Below are positions 1,014 to 54,020 of a stretch of DNA of 64,000 bases, piece by piece. Origin of the DNA: Pardosa pseudoannulata (lineage: Eukaryota > Arthropoda > Arachnida > Araneae > Lycosidae); the NCBI GenBank assembly GCA_032207245.1, contig CM063510.1, positions 155,810,948 through 155,874,947 on the forward strand. The letters run 5' to 3'. Under the pieces are notes generated by a model. That model was not told the origin of the DNA. It saw only the letters and a list, made by a program, of their open reading frames with translations, and searched no databases. How positions within the stretch are numbered: position 1 is the first letter of the stretch; each line of letters starts with the position of its first letter. The translations under genes were made by a program, and so were the position numbers.

Positions 1014-1505
1014 CTTGGTTTTGAATCCATGGAGTGTAGGTGCACCCTACCAGTCTGTCAGGGTTACCCTTTAGGGTGCAACATGGAAGGAACATTTCAG
1101 AATTTCATTTTATTTTTACCCTTAATACTCATGTAGTCCCGTGGACCTGCTACTTCAAGAAGATTGCAACACACTCACGTCAACAAGTTGGTTTCGAATC
1201 CATGGAGTGTGGATGCACCCTACCAGTCTGTCAGGGTTACCCTTGAGGGTGCAACATGGAAGTAACATTTCAGAATTTCATTTTATTTTTACCCTTAATA
1301 CTCATGTAGTCCCGTGGACTTGCTGCTTCAAGAAGATTGCAACACACTCACGTCAACAAGTTGGTTTCGAATCCAAGGAGTGTTGGTTCACTCTATTTGT
1401 CTCTCAGGGTTACCACTGAGGGTGCAGCATGGAAGAATTCATTTTATATTTTCAGAATTTATTTTGCTTTTATCCTTTAATACTCATATAGTCCGTGGTC
1501 CCAAA
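1014..1505. repeat. Tandem repeat, 173-bp unit, about 2.8 copies
   Basis: The phrase TTGGTTT[T/C]GAATCCA starts at about 1015, 1188 and 1361, giving an exact 173-bp period. Each unit carries a CAGTCTGTCAGGGTTACC-like block, then ATTTCAGAATTTCATTTTA and a TACTCATGTAGTCC block. Units 1 and 2 differ by only a few bases. Unit 3 is more diverged and breaks off near 1500. The short overlapping frames in this region repeat with the same period and are by-products of the tandem array, not genes. Confidence 0.9.
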
Positions 1506-2029
1506 AGACGCTTGTGAAATCTCAAATTTTTTAAGTCATTAAATTTTCTTTTGTGAGGAATTTCCCCATTCGAAGAGATGTTACAAGATTATTCGTTTGA
1601 AGAAATGTTGCACTGTTTTCATAGACACTCACATACTATCCGCTACTACAGTCATAGAAAGAAGAGGGAACATAGAGATGATTTTGCGTTAACCGAATAT
1701 CGTATCGTGTCATTCAATAAGGTGAAAAAACAAAACAAAAATTACCTTAAAGGAGATTGGAAGCATCAAAAGTTGTATTAAGGAAATTGGGTGAAATATA
1801 AACCAAATAGTTTTTTACACTTATTATATAACATTTATTCATAGCAGACATATATTGTTAAGCAGAAGTTTTACTGTTTTTTTTTTATGGATGGAGGTGA
1901 TTTGAACTTTTAATTCACTAAGATATTATACGTAAGCTATCCTAAATTTGCAATTACTATTAAGAAATAACCCAGATATGTGGATAAAATTTATTTTGTA
2001 TTGCATTGATGAATTCTTATGTTTATAAT
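1506..2029. other. Unassigned AT-rich stretch
   Basis: A short plus-strand frame covers 1578-1781, but it has no domain signature and no similarity that I recognise. Nothing else is supportable. Confidence 0.35.
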
Positions 2030-2936
2030 GGTGCAAGGATGTATTTCGAGGGAAGAGGGGAGGTCTCCGGTGGGTCTAGACACTCCCCAAAATATTTTCA
2101 ATGTACGTATGCTTTACAAAATTTTTTAAACTTGCCTTAAAACTTCTGCATATCAATAGTTCTTATTGCAAGTGTTGAAGAAAAATGGTTTTCAACCATG
2201 AAAACAGTAAAAACATCTCTTCGCAACAGAACTAGTCGCTAAAGGTTTATAAATTTAGCATTACTTTCGGTGCATGTAGTCAGAATTATAAATGTGAATA
2301 AGCTCATCATAAAATCTGAAAGAATTAGTTTACTTCTAGACACCAACAGAATATTGGCATAATCAGTAATTCATTAAATATTTACTTCTACGAGTTACTG
2401 ATTATGCCATTCTGTTTTCGAATTTTGTTATACAAGACATGTAATTTGTAAAAGAGAAATAAAAGGATATGCCAGAATTCCTTTCTGTATATTCTTTTTT
2501 ATTTTTCCAGTTATTCATAAAATTACTTTAGTTTAAATGCGTCTGGTATATGCTGGAGCGTAAATTAGATAGGCTCCACTATTTATCAGATAAGTTTAAA
2601 CTTTGTAAAAACTTAAAGCGTAAATTAAAGAACACAATGTGGTTGGAGATATATTTTAGAAGATACAATGAAATTATGTATAGTGTTTCTGATTCGTTTT
2701 ATGACGTACTTACATATGTTTACAAAACTATGTATAAGACTATACATAACGTCTTATACATAAGTTATACTATGTAAAACTATGTATAATTTATAAGACG
2801 TATGTATGTATTTTGTATGTGTGTGTGTGTGTAATGAAAATATTTTATGAGATTGAAAGATCACCGTACTTTGTTTACTGTACGAGTTGGATTAAGACTT
2901 TAGACCCTCAGAAAAAAAAATCTAGTGACGTCACTG
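2030..2936 (+). mobile_element. hAT transposon 3' fragment (hAT-W copy A)
   Basis: This is a decayed 3' end of a hAT superfamily DNA transposon. At 2190-2243 the frame reads WFSTMKTVKTSLRNRTSR then stop. After a frame break it continues as FINLALLSVHVVRIINV. Together these are the hallmark of the hAT C-terminal dimerisation region (S-F-S-x-M-K-R-x-K, then L-x-x-L-A-L-L-S-x-H). About 650 bp of non-coding 3' sequence follows. The copy ends in GTGACGTCACTG at 2925-2936, the reverse of the CAGTGACGTA-type terminal repeat shared with other copies. Stops and frameshifts make it inactive. The 5' catalytic part is missing. Confidence 0.8.
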
Positions 2937-2952
2937 GCAGCAGACATAGAAT

Positions 2953-3635
2953 ACCCTATATAATAATAGCCTAAGTTATCTGTCCGTCTGTCCACGAATT
3001 TTTGAAGCGGTTGGTCCTGGTATGGAAATAGGCGTCCATATTAGATTCTTAATGAGTTAGGGTTAGCAACATTCAAAGCGAATAAAGTTTAGCTTCTTAA
3101 CTATCGATCTGATTCTAAAATAAATTGGTGTAAATATGCTTCATATCACAGCGAAAGATACTGTCATCTTTAAAACGTTCGAAATCCACTCCTTTCCCCC
3201 CTTTTCTAGAGTTTAATGCGATTATTTCAAACCCTATTTTCCCCGGTTAAGAGCAGGCGATTAAATTTATCAATTTATTACATAATAAATAAATGAAAAT
3301 AACATTTTTTTTCTATCATTATGACGTCATTCCTTTAACCCTCTCTTTGAATCATTTCTTGTTTTAAATTATTTAAATATCGTTTGCATTATTGTCATAC
3401 TTTTTATCACTGAACTTAGATATTACGTAATTAATTTTCTTTTATATTTGACCTAAATAATAGATTATGTACGTATGTGTTAATTTAAAGTTTAATCATC
3501 GATTATTTTTGGCTGCAAGATAATTCTCAGCCAAAAAACAAACCATTTTTTTTTACCTGCCTCATAGGGTACTTTACAATTCTGGAAAATTAAAAATTTT
3601 ACTGATCCCGTCATATGGCGGGCTTTATGCTAGTA
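2953..3635 (+). repeat. Dispersed repeat X, plus copy
   Basis: This 0.68-kb repeat also occurs inverted at 17931-18912. Shared landmarks in order: CCCTATATAATAATAG, TGTCCGTCTGTCC, a GCGGTTGG-CCTGG block, TTCTAAAATAAATTGGT, CTTCATATCACAGC, CCGGTTAAGAGCAGGCGAT, ATGACGTCATTCCTTTAACC, and finally GTCATATG-CGGG with GCTAGTA at the end. It has no coding capacity. A terminal CTAGTA with a nearby short hairpin resembles tails of some RTE-derived or Helitron-like repeats, but I cannot assign a class. Confidence 0.8.
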
Positions 3636-4692
3636 AATTGATAGTATACTAATAAAAGGATATCAGAAACTAAAAACAGTTACGGATCTGAGAGTTCTAA
3701 CACTAAATAAATGTTATATGTTTAGAGATAGTAATAAGCACAAAAGTGCGGTGAGAATTTTTTTTACTGCTTTCAAATCTTAGCAAGCAGCAATATATGC
3801 AAAGCTAACGTAAGGACCAAATAAAAAGACTTGCTCTACGTTGATATACTTTCTGGAACATAGATTCTCTTATAGATTTAAGCAAGAAGGACTCACACAT
3901 AAAGCGTCTCGGATTGAGAGCCGGGTTACCCGGATCATGGAATGATTATGGGCGATGACATTCACCTCTATATTTCCAATGTCATTACTAACGGAAACCA
4001 GGGTTAAGATCATCTGCCCCGTCGTTTTCACTCTACCCCTTTTTTTTTCACTTCTGCTCACTGGGAAAGGAAGTACACGTTGAAAAAAGGGGGTTGAATA
4101 TTCTTCACTTTCCCTTTCTTCTGAGATGGAGTCGCGGAAGCGGGGTTCACCTTGAGGGACTGTTCTGCTGCCCTTGGGGAAGGCAACCCCTTTCCTTTCC
4201 TTTTCTCGGCTCCGACCCCTTTTTCCTCAGCTTTCGTTCTTACAAGCTTTTGTTCTCCTTAACCTTCCGGTTTAAGTGGCTTCCAATAAAAAAATTAAAT
4301 AAAAAAAATATTGAAAACATCCATGTACTGGCAGGTTTTGTGTTCAAAGGTATGTCAGGTGTTGCCGAGTTTCCGGAGGTATTTCGTACACGCTACGCAG
4401 TCACTGTTTACATGTGCTAGATGTGAAACTGTAACAATAGCACAACTCCATTCCGTCAGTAAGGCGGTATGTTGGAAGGTATATACACATACATATATAT
4501 TATATTACAAAATATAACGGTTACTGACTTGCTGATGGCGTCCTGTTCGAAATGTGTACATTTAGAGCAAAAAGACTTCCATATTTTTGTTCTCCAATTC
4601 GTTTTTATCTCATTGGATTACTTTGTATATCACCATTGAGGCTGCAAGCCATCTTCGGTAAACATAGCAGTAAGTTTACAATTTTTTCTTAG
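3636..4692. other. Unassigned stretch
   Basis: Moderately GC-richer than its surroundings between about 3880 and 4420. Open frames on both strands lack domains, conserved motifs or plausible starts. It could be an old repeat or an exon of an unrecognised gene; I see no support for either. Confidence 0.3.
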
Positions 4693-4853
4693 TTAACCCT
4701 TTACCTGTCCTATACATCACATATGATACACTTATATAAAGCTTTATACGCTTGTATATCATATGCGATTTATCATATGATTTTTTCAGTTATATGTATG
4801 AAATACATACGAGATATAATTATTCTGTTGTATAGGGACAGTCAAAGGGTTGA
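4693..4853. mobile_element. TTAA-flanked piggyBac-like MITE (TTAA-1 copy a)
   Basis: It starts TTAACCCTTTACCTGTCC and ends GACAGTCAAAGGGTTGA, an inverted match with one degraded TTAA. TTAA target duplication plus a CCCTTT terminal repeat is the signature of the piggyBac superfamily. The interior is palindromic AT-rich sequence with CATATGATACAC and GCTTTATACGCTTGTAT, shared with copies at 17031, 21200, 30504, 46136, 47049, 57405 and 58722. It has no coding capacity, so it would have been moved by a transposase encoded elsewhere. Confidence 0.75.
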
Positions 4854-4861
4854 CCCCTTAA

Positions 4862-4932
4862 CGTGCACGCTCGAGTTAACTCGAGAGCATTAAACTGGCC
4901 AAACTGTGCACACTCGAGATAATTCGAGCAGC
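4862..4932. repeat. Paired XhoI-type palindromes in a direct repeat
   Basis: A perfect 16-bp palindrome, CTCGAGTTAACTCGAG, lies at 4870-4885. A near-copy, CTCGAGATAATTCGAG, lies at 4913-4928, 43 bp away. The left copy is preceded by GTGCACG and the right by GTGCACA, so they form a direct repeat of about 24 bp. The site abuts the end of the TTAA-1 MITE and starts with CCTTAACG, so it may be the end of another TTAA element. Confidence 0.7.
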
Positions 4933-4945
4933 GTTGTACTTTTGT

Positions 4946-5689
<744 letters not shown>

Positions 5690-5699
5690 AGTATCAAGG

Positions 5700-6431
5700 A
5701 CATATTTACAGCTAAGGGTGGAGAAATCCGAGAGGGGGGGGAGGTCTATACCCAATCTAAATATGTATAATGTGTACATTAAAATATTTTTAACATTAAA
5801 ATTTGCTTAGATTAGTTTTTACTGCAAGTGATGACAGATCGTTTTCAACCATGAAAAGAGTAAAAACATTTCTTCGCAATAGAACTTTTGGTCTATATAG
5901 GAATGACTATAAATGCGACTAGTTTTGTTCAATTGGTTTGATCAATTTGGTTTTAAAGTCTAGGCTAATTAATTTGGTATTATAAAATGGTAGTTTATAA
6001 ATTGCTGGTTATGCCATACTTTCCGAATTTTGTTGTCATCCAAGTTATGCAATTTTGCAAAAGAAAAATGAAACTGTCATGATTTTTTTTCCAATATGTT
6101 TTTATTTTATATTCCTATTTATAAAATGTAGTTCAATTTCATCTGGTAAATACTGTAACTTAAATTGAGCATATTCCTGTTTTTACTAGGCAAATTTAAA
6201 TTTGGTAAAAATTTAGAGCGTAAATTAAAAGACACAGTATGATTTCAAATGTATTTTTCAAGATACAATGAAGTGACATATATAGTTGCTGAACCATTTA
6301 ATGACGTATTTATGCATACATGCAAAACTATGGATGTATGTATAAGACATGTATGCATGTATGTTTGTACTTTGTATGTGATGAAAATTTTTGGACCTTT
6401 TCACGAAAAAAAAATTCTGTCTACGTCACTG
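5700..6431 (+). mobile_element. hAT transposon 3' fragment (hAT-W copy B)
   Basis: At about 5841-5888 the frame reads SFSTMKRVKTFLRNRT, the best preserved hAT dimerisation motif in the window. Upstream is the family's GAGAGGGGGGGAGGTC block. Downstream come TTATAAATTGCTGGTTATGCC, AAAATGTAGTTCAATTTC and a TATGCATACATGCAAAAC block, all in the same order as in copies A and G. The copy ends at CTACGTCACTG (6421-6431), the reversed terminal repeat. The reading frame is broken after the motif. Confidence 0.8.
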
Positions 6432-26879: not shown

Positions 26880-27400
26880 GATTTAAGTGGTTTACCTTCC
26901 TTTCTGTCTACAAAATGACGACCATCGGATCTAAACAAATTAAATTTTGACTCATCAGTAAAAATAAGACTTCCAAAAATCTTGACTTCGTAATATAGTA
27001 TTTAGCATATTCAAGACGTTTTTTCGCATTTCTGGCAGATAAATATGGTTTCTTTTGTGGTGCATAGGCTCTATATTCCTTAGAATCTAAAAAAATTTTA
27101 CCTTCTGTGGATTCACATTGACAACAGATGTCTCTTTCAACTGTCTTGATATCTTTATTGCAGAAATTGTAAGATTCTCTTTAACAAATCTCAGTATCCA
27201 CCTCTCTAACTGAGGCGAAGAAATCTTTTTGGGCCAACCTCTTCCATTTGGCCTGTGGAAAAATCCGTACCTTTTATAGTTATTAATTACGTAATGCACT
27301 GTTGAATGCGGCTTTTTCACAATTTCTGCTATATCTCTCATGCTCTTCTTTCCTTTCCATAGTTTCGAAATTAAGTTTTTCATATCTATAAAGGTTGATT
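26880..27400 (-). pseudogene. Tc1-like transposase, N-terminal two-thirds fragment
   Basis: Transposase of the Tc1/mariner superfamily, which excises and reinserts the element at TA sites. The minus-strand frame 27383-27087 encodes an N-terminal helix-turn-helix: SKLWKGKKSMRDIAEIV, KPHSTVHYVINNYKRYG, RGWPKKISSPQLERWILRFV, NLTISAIKISRQLKE. After a frameshift, 27080-26880 continues with YLSARNAKKRLEYAKYY. It then reaches LIFTDESKFNLFRSDGRHFV, which holds the first catalytic Asp of the DDE triad (F-T-D-E-S-K-F). The rest of the catalytic domain is missing beyond the microsatellite. At least one frameshift makes it a pseudogene. A sequence TACAGTGAACC (reverse complement, near 27610-27620) may mark its 5' terminal repeat. 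Confidence 0.85.
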
Positions 27401-28380
27401 GGAAGTTAGAGTTGTGGAAATCTCAAAATTTCATCTTTAAATTATTTTATTTAATTAAATGCAGCGTTTTATTGAAATGCAAACCAATCATCTCATTCGT
27501 GGGAGAAATTACCATTTAAAAAAAAAAATGTTTCATTTTAAAAGTACAACTCGCTTTTAAAATATTGAGCTACAAAATGGATTCTCCTTGCTGTCTAACT
27601 TTTTTTTTGGTTCACTGTATATAATTGTATAGATGTATGAATGTGTAAAATATATTCCATATCTCTCACTATAAATATGTGCAACACACACACATACAGA
27701 CAGTTTTGGTTTGGAGAGCTTGGGTTTTATTAAATACACGAGGATAACAGCTTTATTTAACGTAAACTTTTAATTCTACCGAATGTTTGTGAATATATAC
27801 TAAAGTAAGATTCAAATAACTCCGGTTAGTAAATTACCATCGTTTGGCTCATCTAAGTGAGATTGGGAAAACATATATGTGTGTCTGTGAGTAAACACAC
27901 ACACACAATTATCGACACGTAACTGTCTTCACATTCGATATAATATTTTTATACTTTTTACATTTTGAAATGACTTGCTGTTCTTTCGGTATATTCCGAA
28001 GTGTGTAGATGATCACTAAAGATGAGTCGAAAAATCGAATGTTTGATATTGAATTTCAACAGTGCCTTGATTCCTTCTGATATGGTGACCGAACGAGGGA
28101 TGAATGGTCGAGTGCTGTTCTTCGATATCGGATTATGTAGATTCGAATCCCGCTAATGGCAAGGATAGTCGTAGCCGTTCGAAATCTGCTTTAACCCCTT
28201 GATCTACAAGTAAAACGGAATTTGATGTATCCAAAAATCTTGACTGAACAATATGTATTAGAAAAAGACGTTTTTTTCGCATTTCTGCTGTGTAACATTT
28301 AATGGTTTTATGTGTTATATACAACCTTAAGAAAAGCATAAATTATGATAAAATTTATTTATCTTTGGTTTGATTACAGA
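27200..28380. repeat. Local duplication, copy 1 (better preserved)
   Basis: This block contains the Tc1-like 5' region, an AT-rich spacer, the head of a SINE-1 copy and the left end of a TTAA element. Its landmarks recur in the same order at 28384-29275. The phrase around 28021-28066 (GAGTCGAAAAATCGAATGTT and onward) is repeated almost unchanged 989 bp downstream. Confidence 0.75.
28086..28190 (+). mobile_element. SINE-1, 5' part (split copy)
   Basis: Head CGAACGAGGGATGAATGGTC, anticodon-arm region TGTTCTTCGATATCGGA, B box GATTCGAATCCCGC, then GTCGTAGCCGTTCGAAATCT and GC. It breaks exactly at the SINE's internal TTAA, where the element 28191-29513 begins. The remaining SINE tail resumes at 29514. 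Confidence 0.8.
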
Positions 28381-36756: not shown

Positions 36757-36825
36757 ACGGTCGCCAAACGATGGAAAAATTATTAGGGTGCTGACAGGAC
36801 CGTTACCAGGTCCTTTGGCGACCGT
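36757..36825. repeat. Nested perfect inverted repeats (hairpin)
   Basis: ACGGTCGCCAAA (36757-36768) pairs perfectly with TTTGGCGACCGT (36814-36825). Just inside the right arm, GGACC (36797) and GGTCC (36809) form a second stem around GTTACCA. Part of the loop (AAACGATGG...TTATTAGGGTGCTG) resembles the SINE-1 head. It may therefore be a rearranged SINE. Confidence 0.7.
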
Positions 36826-36889
36826 GGCAGAAAACTGGTCTGCGCTCTTATTACCAAATATAATGAGAAAATAAATAAACATGTTTTTT

Positions 36890-37330
36890 TTTCCTATATC
36901 GTATATTCAAAAGGAACTCACAAACTCTTAGTTCTTAAAATGTTCCTTGTATATTAATTTTTAATTTTTTCTTCTATTTTTACCGTATTAATACTTTAAT
37001 ATTTTTGAACATTCTGGGGGTATTATTGTCTTGATAAACTGAATACTTTATTTAAGGGAAATATGTTTTATTTAGACATTGAATTTTCATAAAAAAATGG
37101 TGAATTTTTAAATTGAAATTAGTTTTAATAACATTAATAAATCTAAAATTTTAAACGAAAACCCGAATTTATGTAAAGGCATAATAGGATTGTTTGGTAA
37201 ACGCTTTGTAAAATTCTATAATAAGTTTAGCCTCTAGAAACACTTAAAAATATCATCAAAAAAATAATTTTTAAACAATGGATTTTATAATAAAAAAAAT
37301 TATTTTCAACTTTTCCTTATTTCTACTCGA
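36890..37330. other. Unassigned AT-rich stretch
   Basis: No gene or repeat recognised. It could be the interior of a CAGGGCC element running from 35850 to 37435. Confidence 0.3.
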
Positions 37331-37435
37331 GGCGAATTGTCCTCTTTCGGACCCCATTTTTCTCATGGTGCCGCGCCCCTATGACTGATGCGCCCGTGGC
37401 AAATGTCACCTTTGCACGCCCTAGTTACGGCCCTG
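37331..37435 (-). mobile_element. hAT-like terminal fragment (CAGGGCC end)
   Basis: The reverse complement begins CAGGGCCGTAACTAGGGCGT, then GCAAAGGTGACATTTGCCAC and GGGCGCATCAG. This is a hAT-type terminal sequence. It abuts a SINE-1 copy whose 5' end is missing, so the element probably inserted into, or was deleted together with, the SINE head. Confidence 0.5.
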
Positions 37436-40985: not shown

Positions 40986-41182
40986 TTTAACCGGACCACC
41001 ACCACCCTCTTCTACATGAAATAGAGCACACAAGGACGTATTTATAGGGGGTTCCGAAGGATCTGGACACTTCCGAAATATTTTTAATGTATGCATTACA
41101 AGATAGTTTAAACTTATTAAAATTTGTGTACATTACTAATTTCCAACGCAATTGTTGAAAGAACGTTTCTAACATTCAAAAG

Positions 41183-41354
41183 GCAGAACGATGGCCGATT
41201 GGTTAGGGTGCGGCCCTTCGGTACCGGAGTTCGTAGGTTCGAATCCAACTGTGGCATGGATGTTCGTAGCCGTTCGGAATCAGTTTAAGTTGTAGGTCCC
41301 ATTAGCCCTCGTATTGCAAAAAGTAGACCGTAGCACTCCAAACTAAACCAAACC
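41183..41354 (+). mobile_element. SINE-1, full length, with imperfect 12-bp target duplication
   Basis: GCAGAACGATGGCCGATTGG, GTTAGGGTGCGGCCCTTCGG, TACCGGAGTTCGTAGGTTCG, AATCCAACTGTGGC, ATGGATGTTCGTAGCCGTTC, GTAGGTCCCATTAGCCCTCG, AGTAGACCGTAGCACTCC and the tail AAACTAAACCAAACC follow one another. Flanks are AACATTCAAAAG on the left and AACCCTCAAAAG on the right. Removing the SINE restores continuous hAT sequence. Length is about 172 bp. Confidence 0.85.
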
Positions 41355-42063: not shown

Positions 42064-42426
42064 GCTGTTGCTGTTGCATGTGCCACTTGGTCTCACCAAG
42101 CACGATTGAGCCGGAGGCTACTCGTATTAAGGCAAGGAGGAGCACCTTTCGTTTCGACGAGCTCCTCAAGGGTGAAAGTACGACTTAAGCTCAAGTAATT
42201 CTGATAGTAATTCTGATCCTTGTAATTCTGAAGCAGGGACTAAGCAGAAGACCCATAGGTTTGGTCTGCCACCCCCAGAGGTATTGATTGAGAACTTGAA
42301 GGGCTTTGTGACCACAAACCTATTTTACCTTTAACGAACACGGTGGGTCTTAGGCCGGCTCGGGTTCCGAACTTGCAACCTTCCAGTTACAAGAGCGTTG
42401 TCTTTGCCGACTGAGCTACCGCGGCT
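42064..42426 (-). mobile_element. SINE-2, full length, with perfect 14-bp target duplication
   Basis: CATTTCTTCGCATT occurs at 42050-42063 and 42427-42440, bounding a 363-bp insertion. On the minus strand it starts with GAGCCGCGGTAGCTCAGTCG. The loop CTTGTAA suggests anticodon TGT (tRNA-Thr-like), and the B box region is GGTTGCAAGTTCGGAACCC. The body has AAATAGGTTTGTGGTCACAA and GGGGGTGGCAGACC, and the element ends in a CAACAGCAACAGC simple tail. It defines the family in this window. Confidence 0.85.
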
Positions 42427-43044
42427 CATTTCTTCGCATTAGAATTGGCGAAAAGAGAATGATAAATTTAGCATTACTTTCGATGCATATAAGCATACCT
42501 GATTATAAATGCGAATGAATATTTAACAAGCTGCCTAAAAGCTAGAAAAAATATTTTTTCTACTGTAAAATGGCAGTTTATAAATTATTGATTATGCCAT
42601 ATTGTTGTCGAATTTTCATGCCATACAAGGTATGCGATTTTTTAAAAGAAAAATAAAAGGAAATGCCATAATTCATTTTTAATATTTTTAATTTTTTTTA
42701 TTATTCATAAAATACTTTAGTTTAAATTCGTCTGATAAAAAATGGAGCATATTGACTCCAGTATTTGCCAAACAAGTCTAAACCTCGTAAAAGCTTGGAG
42801 AGTAAATAAAAAGAAAATATGATTGCAAATATATTCTTCAAGATAATTGAAATTACATTCAGTGTTGCTGATATGTTTTATGACGCATTTGTGTATGCAT
42901 TCAAAACTTTGGATGTATAAGATTTATGTATGTAGGTACTTTGTATATGTATGCATGTAGTAAAATTTTCGTAGCGATTATAGTTTGGAAAAAGACTAAA
43001 ACAACCCCCTGCCCTCCAAAAAAATTGTTTTGGGTACGTTACTG

Positions 43045-48349: not shown

Positions 48350-49094
48350 CAGACCTGCCAACTTTTGAATATTGAAAATAGTAGCACTTGACAACTTTTG
48401 AAATCAAAAATAGTAGCACACTAATTTGCGAGGTAGGTTGGATGGCGAGTTTTTACACCATAAATCCTGGGCAATCGCACGCGTGCCATAACACAATGCA
48501 CATACTAAATGATTGTGTGAATGATGTTTACTGCTCAAACCAAACAATCAATTCTACTAAAGTATCTAAAATCCCATATAAAATTTCAAATAGACAATAT
48601 TTCATTTACAAAATATCATACACATTTCTGAACTGAAAACCCCCCATAAAACGTTAGATGAAGTATTTTATTTACATTAATTTTAGTTGTATTTAAATAC
48701 TATTCTACACCTTAACATTTTTAGTAAGAAATATTAATTTTAAAAAATCTCAGAAATATACTGAGGGACGAACACAGAAATATACTATTATATTATAACC
48801 CATGTTATCAGACAAAAAATCTAAAACTTAATCCAAAAATTTCTACCTTCGAGAGAGTATGGCATCGCACCGTAGTTACACGAAAATGGATCGGAAAAGT
48901 TTTTTTACGGATTTCTTTATATCGCTTGCGGAAATATATTCATTTATTTTGATTTTCCGGATGCGATGTTATTTTTTATTCATGTATTTATTTTTTGACG
49001 AAAAATCGTATTATTTTGCCTGATTTTCGTAGGATCTTAATTATTTGCTAAATTCGTAGAAACTACGATTTTTTCGTAGCAGTTGGCAGGTCTG
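48350..49094. mobile_element. TIR element K, copy 1 (non-autonomous DNA transposon)
   Basis: The termini are CAGACCTGCCAACTTTTG and, in reverse complement, CAGACCTGCCAACTGCTAC: 14 identical terminal bases. The host phrase TATTTG is repeated at both flanks. The interior is about 745 bp without coding capacity. Subterminal direct repeats are visible: ATAGTAGCACTTGACAAC and ATAGTAGCACAC at the left, and imperfect ACTACGATTTTTTCGTAG palindromes at the right. A second copy in opposite orientation lies at 52149-53645. Confidence 0.85.
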
Positions 49095-51520: not shown

Positions 51521-52148
51521 TCTTGCAGAAGAATAAAATGTTCTACACATACATTCATGCTTTTGCATGCACACATATATATGATATAAAGTGGATCAGC
51601 CACACTGTATGTAATTTTATTGTATCTCGAAAAATATATTTGCAACAAGATTGTTTCTTTTACTTTAAGCTAAGTTCTTACCAGGTTTAAATTTACCTTG
51701 CGAATACTGGAGCAAGTTTAATTTACTATCCAGTATTTACCAGACAAGTTTAAACTAATTATATGAATAATCAGGAAAATAAAAAATATAAATTCAGAAA
51801 GGAGTTATGATATATCCCTTTACTTTTCTTTTACTGAATGATATACCTTGAATGCCAATAAAATTCATAAACACGATGGTATAATCAGTAATTTATAAAC
51901 TACCTTTTTATAGTTATCAATTAATAATTCTGATTTTTTAGGCCTGCTTTTTCAAACTTTCCTATGAATTTATAGTCATGCTTATGTGTACCGAAAGAAA
52001 ATAATGCTAAATTTGTCAATTTTGTATATCCAGTTCTTTTGCGAAGAAATGATTTTACTCTTCATGTTTGTAAACGATTTTTACTCGCTTGCAGTGTAAA
52101 CTAATATTGTACAACAAATTTTAATAATTTTAAAAAGTCTAGCTATAC

Positions 52149-53645
52149 CAGACCTGCCAACTGCTACGAAAAAATCGTAGTTTCTACGAATTTAGTAAAT
52201 AATTACGACCCTACGAAAATCGGTTAAAAAAATACGAATTTTCGTCAAGAAATATATAAAGTAATAAAAAATTACATCGCATCTGGGAATTCAAAATGAA
52301 GGAATATATTTTCGCAAGCGATATAAAGAAATCCGTAAAAAACTTTTCCGATCCATTCTCGTGTAACTACGGTGCGATACCATACTCTCTCGAAGGTAGA
52401 AATTTTTGGATTAAAAGTTACATTTTTTTTCTGATAATACTGGTTGTAATGTAATAGTATATTTCTGTGTTCTGCCCTCAGTATATTTGAGATTTTTTAA
52501 AAATTATTTCTTACAATAAAAATGTTAAGATGTGAAGTAACATTTAAATACAACTAAAATACTTCTTATGGGGAGTCTTCAGTTCAGAAATGTATATAAA
52601 TGTATATGATATTCTGAAAAGGAAATATTGTCTATTTGAAATTTTATATGGAATTTTAGATACTTTAGTAAAATTGATGGTTTGGTTTGAGAAGTAAACA
52701 TCATACACACAATCATTTAGTATAGGGTTGGTCATTTTGCCGGCAAAATGGTATTTTTGCCAGGACAGTGTCAAAAACTGGAAGAAACCTGCAAAATCTA
52801 GAAAAATTGGCTGGATTTTAAAAATGTACAAAATAATTAATAATTAATAAATAACAAAATAATAAATAATTTTGTACATAATACAATTGAGACTTAAATC
52901 ATAATATTAATTAGGTGTTTCATTAGTATTAATTTGACAATTTAAACAATTAAAAATAATTTTCATTGATGTTAGAAATGAAAATACAATATTCTATTTT
53001 TGTAAATAAATTTATGTGATGGAGGCATGGGATAAAAAATGTTTTCTTTATTTATCAATTTAATATAGTAATGTTGTCTTTAATTGTAATGTGTATATAT
53101 ACATATAAAAGATAGATATATGATATAAGTACTAAAAACGCTTAAACCTACAGTTTGTAGGGGAATATAAGCTAATAATTACATTAAAACAACACTGCAC
53201 ATAAAAACTTGCAAAATCAATCTTCATTTATCTTTTTTTTTATCTCTAGGTAGTATAACTTTAGATTTAAATTACTGTTTCAATAATGCGTTGAATATTC
53301 TTTGTTACAAAAAACCATTATATTATGTATTTTTAGATTAGAGTTAAAATTAGTAAAAGTTAAAATAGTTACATCCCCGTAAATAAAACATATCCATTTT
53401 TGCCACTTGGCAAAAAGTGGCAAAAATGTATTTTTGCCAGGACGGTTTTTTCCATTGTTTTTTCCACCTTTGGCAAAAACGTGTTAACCCTAATTTAGTA
53501 TGTGCATTGCGTTATGGCTATTGCCCAAGATTTATAGTGTAAAAACTCGCCATCCAACCTACCTCGCAAATGAGTGTGCTACTATTTTTGATTTCAAAAG
53601 TTGTCAATTGCTACTATTTTCAATATTCAAAAGTTGGCAGTTCTG
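52149..53645. mobile_element. TIR element K, copy 2 (inverted, carries an insertion)
   Basis: It starts CAGACCTGCCAACTGCTACG and ends AAAGTTGGCAGTTCTG. Flanks AGCTATAC (52141) and AGCTATAT (53646) are a near-perfect 8-bp duplication of hAT host sequence. The body is the reverse of 48350-49094 (TCCGTAAAAAACTTTTCCGA; CTCTCGAAGGTAGAAATTTT; CTCGCCATCCAACCTACCTC). It is interrupted at 52723-53492 by a further element. Confidence 0.85.
52723..53492. mobile_element. hAT-type non-autonomous element nested in element K
   Basis: ATTTAGTA is duplicated at 52715-52722 and 53493-53500. In the uninterrupted copy K1 (reverse complement near 48500) this phrase occurs once. Termini are TAGGGTTGGTCATTTTGCC and, in reverse complement, TAGGGTTAACACGTTTTTGCC. 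Subterminal repeats of TTTTTGCCAGGAC occur at both ends (52757; 53431), with a TTGGCAAAAAGTGGCAAAAA pair near the right end. The interior is AT-rich without coding capacity. 8-bp duplication and short terminal repeats suit hAT. Confidence 0.85.
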
Positions 53646-53850
53646 AGCTATATATACTTAAAAAATATTTCGGGGGGAGGGATGCAGACGCTACAACCCT
53701 CCACGCCCTATAAATAGTCCTTGAAATGTGTGTATAAGACATAACTGGATATTTTTCGAAAATTACGATTGTAAATACTACTAAACATACTTCTAACTTA
53801 CGTCAGATAAAAAAATATGTTTATTACTGCACACAGTATGATTACCTGGA

Positions 53851-54020
53851 CAGGGGCGTACGCAAGGGGGGTTAGGGGTTTAAACACCCCCTTGAGCTCA
53901 GACAAAATAGCAAAAATAAAAATTTTAGTAGAAATTATGTAGGCAATTATTTTTTAGAATTATGAAAAACCCCTTGAAAATTATGACTCCCCCCTTGAAA
54001 AAATTTTGCGTACGCTACTG
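53851..54020. mobile_element. 170-bp hAT-type MITE with perfect 8-bp target duplication
   Basis: TACCTGGA lies at 53843-53850 and 54021-54028. Termini are CAGGGGCGTACGCAAG and, in reverse complement, CAGTAGCGTACGCAAA. The inner parts also mirror one another: GGGGTTTAAACACCCCCTTG on the left; ACCCCTTGAAAATTATGACT and CCCCCCTTGAAAAAA on the right. No coding capacity. It is one of the cleanest insertions in the window. Confidence 0.9.

Follow-up and report, generated by a model that had tools for sequence, protein, structure and literature searches.

Transposition-in-transposition dating (TinT) reportedly orders the activity of element families by their nesting. The locus described here likewise orders element activity, although the TinT work, in the part of its description cited here (PMC3014933), deals with primate Alu retroposons, whereas ours are DNA elements in a spider. 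Among described elements of comparable kind, Mar and Vege are hAT MITEs of Drosophila willistoni of 610 and 884 bp (PMC3517528). According to the passages of that source used here, both are short, AT-rich and non-coding, with 11-12-bp ends and 8-bp duplications (PMC3517528), a pattern that fits the innermost (M) and outermost (W) elements of our locus, whereas the end sequences differ. In addition, Mar has a central TA in its target (same passages, PMC3517528), whereas M prefers a T in position 2 and an A in position 7. The intermediate element (K) invites comparison with the Dada DNA transposons, whose 6-7-bp duplications are near the shorter values found for K; however, the U6 and U1 Dada elements, as the cited part of PMC3706591 presents them, lack terminal inverted repeats and are aimed at RNA genes, whereas the terminal repeats of K measure 14 bp and its targets vary. 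Dada was ruled out for K by these terminal repeats and varied flanks.

We analyzed a stretch of 64,000 nucleotides (the window) from a chromosome of Pardosa pseudoannulata, and compared its elements with the genome (2,415,360,735 bases in 1949 contigs, the window lying in contig C14), for which the assembly paper gives 25.01% of unknown repeats in the section cited (PMC10810088). The window contains a three-level nest, in which a copy of W (copy H) is split by a K element (K2), itself split by M. We consider, with a probability of about 95%, that three short elements inserted here one after the other by cut-and-paste transposition. The nest is ordinary and such nests are routine, but it cleanly orders, relative to one another, three element families that are abundant in the Pardosa pseudoannulata genome.

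Architecture of the nest

The preliminary description had proposed the same three levels and an end-to-end match between K2, once freed of its insert, and the reverse of an uninterrupted K element (K1, Table 1). This match was found. Removing 52723-53492 only, as had been suggested, leaves the 8-mer ATTTAGTA twice, and one copy was removed before alignment. The resulting alignment with reverse K1 covers 755 columns, with 641 matches, 68 mismatches (35 transitions and 33 transversions) and 46 gap columns, and 641 of the 709 ungapped columns are thus identical. The local score was 1002, whereas none of 100 shuffles exceeded 31, and the two arms of K2 align with K1 separately too (scores of 764 and 254). 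When 0 to 13 bases after M were dropped, the fit of the M insertion site to K1 gave a single peak at 8. The coordinates proposed for M were right, with ATTTAGTA on both sides, and the AGCTATAC/AGCTATAT flanks of K2 were confirmed in the sequence. K1 had also been said to prove the boundary and the single-copy state of the target; it is indeed uninterrupted and carries one clean ATTTAGTA at the M point, although "prove" is slightly strong, because K1 is a paralogue at another site.

Table 1. Positions in the window of the components of the nest and of the K and W copies used for comparison.
Feature	Position	Strand	Remarks
W copy H, left part	51530..52148	+	hAT-type, non-autonomous, own left end missing; longest W matches 67-72% identity
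Left target-site copy of K2	52141..52148	+	AGCTATAC
Element K2	52149..53645	-	inverted relative to K1, interrupted by M; termini CAGACCTGCCAACT and (opposite strand) CAGAACTGCCAACT
Left target-site copy of M	52715..52722	+	ATTTAGTA
Element M	52723..53492	+	770-bp hAT-type MITE; TAGGGTT/AACCCTA ends, GGCAAAAATG-type subterminal repeats
Right target-site copy of M	53493..53500	+	ATTTAGTA (8/8)
Right target-site copy of K2	53646..53653	+	AGCTATAT (7/8)
W copy H, right part	53654..53723	+	to W end CCTTG; joined flanks align through junction
Element K1	48350..49094	+	uninterrupted, 745 bp; 14-bp perfect inverted ends, flanks 6-bp TATTTG
W copy B	5695..6431	-	most complete W in the window, both ends recognised; flanks CTACTGGA/ATACTGGA

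The genome search for K gave at least 56 matches among those listed, the best 40 of 808 candidates being scored. In each of the 42 fetched K loci, the flanks of M align continuously through the M point, with no insert (49 alignments, 38 distinct places, K1 included). The list consists of near-full matches and favours uninterrupted copies, because a split lowers the score of a copy, and K2 is itself absent from it; therefore, the 42 of 42 shows the empty state to be common, and not that K2 is the sole split copy. Counting uninterrupted M targets by 24-mers gave 57, a figure inflated by chance, as three shuffles gave 4, 4 and 10, and the alignment was used instead.

Family W is present in the window as eight main copies (A to H), 69-76% identical to each other, and smaller pieces. 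H is a fragment whose right end stands at 53723 and whose left end is missing; its left limit is approximate, the alignments to W beginning at 51538-51672. The left flank of K2 matches W strongly, and the right flank alone (approximately 78 bases of W) is inconspicuous in BLAST. When the two flanks were joined with one 8-mer and aligned to the other W copies, as the preliminary description had suggested, we observed a match across the junction, for instance at 72% identity in copy C (143 columns) and at 75% near 41073-41175, also in W (105 columns); the multiple alignment likewise shows W continuity across the K2 junction. In the empty-site comparison summed over eight W stretches, dropping 8 bases was best (332), with 6 (326) and 4 (325) close, and only one of the eight stretches peaks at 8 by itself. 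Since the other lengths come so close, the length of 8 bp for the K2 duplication is taken mainly from the 7/8 direct repeat.

Target-site duplications and classification of the elements

For each copy of M and K, we scored the best duplication length between 4 and 11 bp. Among 30 M copies, it was 8 in 26, 7 in one, 10 in one and none in two, with no case of 6, and 27 of the 30 copies have at least seven of the eight duplication bases matched. Mispaired M flanks (870 pairs) gave 6 bp in 1.72% and 8 bp in 0.23%. The Ac-type target consensus is nTnnnnAn. In 25 M copies, T at position 2 or A at position 7 was found in 62 of 100 positions (approximately 34 expected from base content) and the central TA in 10 of 50; the five copies left out are L045, a duplicate, and L047, L051, L062 and L070, in which 8 was not best. 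In its target preference, M resembles the Ac-type consensus and not the central TA seen in the Buster-type Mar. Its 7-bp TAGGGTT ends and its 770 bp are within the limits given for hAT elements (short terminal inverted repeats of 5-27 bp, less than 4 kb) in the passage cited (PMC3517528). Taken together, these results support M as an element of hAT-type behaviour and as the 770-bp hAT-type MITE with TAGGGTT termini that had been described. The M search gave at least 41 matches among those listed (best 40 of 1074 candidates scored).

The W search gave at least 53 matches among those listed (best 40 of 3366 candidates scored). In 14 pairs of candidate ends, of which several are doubtful (including three with one common left end in an AT repeat), a duplication signal was clear only at 8 bp, with a match fraction of 0.438 vs. 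0.241 for mispaired pairs; at the other lengths from 5 to 10, the same 14 pairs were at most 0.05 above the mispaired control. The terminal repeats of W are imperfect, CAGTGACGTA matching CAAGGACATA from the other end of copy B at 7 of 10 positions. The 8-bp signal and the CAGTGACGTA-type ends support the assignment of W, and of H with it, to the hAT type, in agreement with the preliminary description. At 42340-42430 and 41183-41348 of the window, tRNA-like SINE sequences, recognised by eye and with no tRNA called, adjoin or break W copies.

Element K has the short terminal inverted repeats of hAT elements (14 bp, perfect in K1). Like M, it has the features of a MITE, being short, with inverted ends, target duplications and many copies, and non-coding in the 10 of 20 open reading frames of at least 45 aa that were checked. 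Its duplications present another profile. Of 38 K copies given, 6 were dropped for unclear ends, and in the 32 scored the best length was 8 in nine, 6 in six, 7 in three, 10 in three and none in 11. The two window copies differ in this respect, K1 being a 6-bp case (TATTTG, not 8 bp) and K2 an 8-bp case (7/8). The K duplications are likely of mixed length, mostly 6 to 8 bp, which we do not regard as settled. Because of this mixture, K is not to be filed as hAT on present evidence; it is a terminal-inverted-repeat element, the superfamily of which is left unassigned.

A serious alternative, which we find somewhat doubtful, would make K an ordinary hAT element whose duplications are fixed at 8 bp, the other lengths coming from decay, end-slippage or chance. 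No single length is commoner than 8 bp (9 of 32), no duplication appears in 11 of 32 copies, and the copies are 2.5-8.7% from the majority sequence, so that their flanks have decayed. Two of the 6-bp cases match at 6/6 and four only at 5/6, in two of the 7-bp cases (L005 and L028) the ends are altered and the length could be 8, and K has CAG ends, which we take to be hAT-like. However, M, scored alike in the same genome, behaved differently, as the comparison of K and M gave a Fisher p of 0.0002 for 8 vs. the other assigned lengths and of 0.004 for 6 vs. the others, the copies being taken as independent. Furthermore, the six 6-bp cases among 32 real K copies stand against only 0.91% in 992 mispaired K pairs (0.3% for 8 bp). 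Copy L014 lies inside a tRNA-like SINE family (named by eye; ARAGORN gave no tRNA in the window), and the best fit of its joined flanks to nine empty SINE stretches is obtained when 6 bases are dropped (sum of 685, compared to 676 at 7 and 620 at 8), seven of the nine stretches peaking singly at 6. These observations speak for mixed lengths in K.

We did not find a subfamily split between the 6-bp and the 8-bp copies (best of 850 columns, p 0.03 uncorrected). The K tree (26 rows) is star-like, with one of 23 inner branches well supported, as would be seen in one burst. A tentative and rather unlikely explanation is that the K transposase has no fixed stagger, and that during one burst its cuts in the target were spaced by 6, 7 or 8 bp; K might then be an atypical hAT lineage or an unrecognised superfamily. 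If the mixed lengths hold, they would caution that duplication length alone should not decide where a short element is filed. The mixed length in K is the one point that a specialist might follow up. Searches of paper text with the K-end strings cagacctgccaac, cagacctgccaact and cagacctgcca gave no transposon title among the matches listed, and scans of viral contigs for the K and M ends and of prokaryote genomes for the K end gave 0 matches.

Order of insertion and mobilisation

W, K and M are each multicopy in the same genome, where many separate copies of each were found. The mean pairwise divergences, given as K2P only and with no mutation rate applied, were 0.361 for W (28 pairs from the eight window copies), 0.117 for K (28 rows, K1 being entered twice, as K1 and L001) and 0.065 for M (30 rows, L044 and L045 having common flanks), the K and M values leaning low because their rows are best-scoring matches. 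Sampled divergence declines from W to K to M, which is the order of the nest. The sequence W, then K, then M holds, as do the boundaries and the use of K1 as an uninterrupted paralogue, and 42 of 42 K loci are empty at the M point. An old W element landed first, a K element then entered it with duplication of the target AGCTATA(C/T), and an M element entered K2 last, duplicating ATTTAGTA.

Cut-and-paste elements can leave their sites, and in principle K1 could have lost M by precise excision instead of being an empty paralogue. We consider this very improbable, since all 42 fetched K loci are uninterrupted at the same place, and since hAT excision usually leaves footprints, whereas K1 has its one clean target. 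An artefact of assembly or duplication as the origin of the composite is hardly credible, for although the assembly comes from highly heterozygous material, as stated in the section cited (PMC10810088), each junction has its own target duplication, and K and M are found alone elsewhere with other flanks. We therefore retain three successive insertions as the history of the nest.

No Pfam match was obtained in 10 of the 20 open reading frames of at least 45 aa overlapping the nest, and Rfam and ARAGORN gave no match on the window. As no recognisable transposase was found in the nest, W, K and M were each presumably mobilised in trans by transposase encoded elsewhere. We infer this mobilisation because of what MITEs are, and likewise the identity of the transposases responsible. 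The hAT dimer domain is abundant in the genome, with at least 150 matches (150 scored of 4934 candidates). At 7 of 10 places with hAT frames of at least 559 aa, we found no autonomous partner bounded on both sides by ends of K, M or W, the M end pattern used being able to recognise one of the two M ends only; single weak end-like matches were observed at two of these seven places.

Many of the 150 listed dimer-domain matches, on many contigs, have a 67-aa open frame with one internal TAA, which suggests a high-copy element carrying a broken transposase piece. The window itself carries a Tc1/mariner-like transposase fragment at 27087-27422 (HTH_SB, E 4.4e-5, below the curated cut-off).

Additional elements in the window and in K copies

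Just right of H, at 53851-54020 of the window, we observed an element of 170 bp (J) that ends in CAGGGGCGTACGCAA and, read on the opposite strand, CAGTAGCGTACGCAA, and that has a perfect 8-bp duplication, TACCTGGA. A strict 9-mer structural scan gave 11 AT-rich matches and missed J, and was set aside for a later scan. A hAT-like candidate with CAGGACCGTTACCAG-type ends and a duplicated GGTGCTGA lies at 36795-37435; the structural scan behind it gave three matches in the window and one in 10 random controls.

Other K copies are interrupted or rearranged elsewhere in the genome. In L038 (approximately 1036-5284), a K copy is split by an insert of approximately 540 bp with CAGTAGAACCT ends and TA flanks, presumably Tigger/pogo-like, and this composite is repeated head to tail approximately three times. 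In L039 and L042, K pieces (the first 227 or 128 bases) stand in tandem every 650 or 222 bases approximately.
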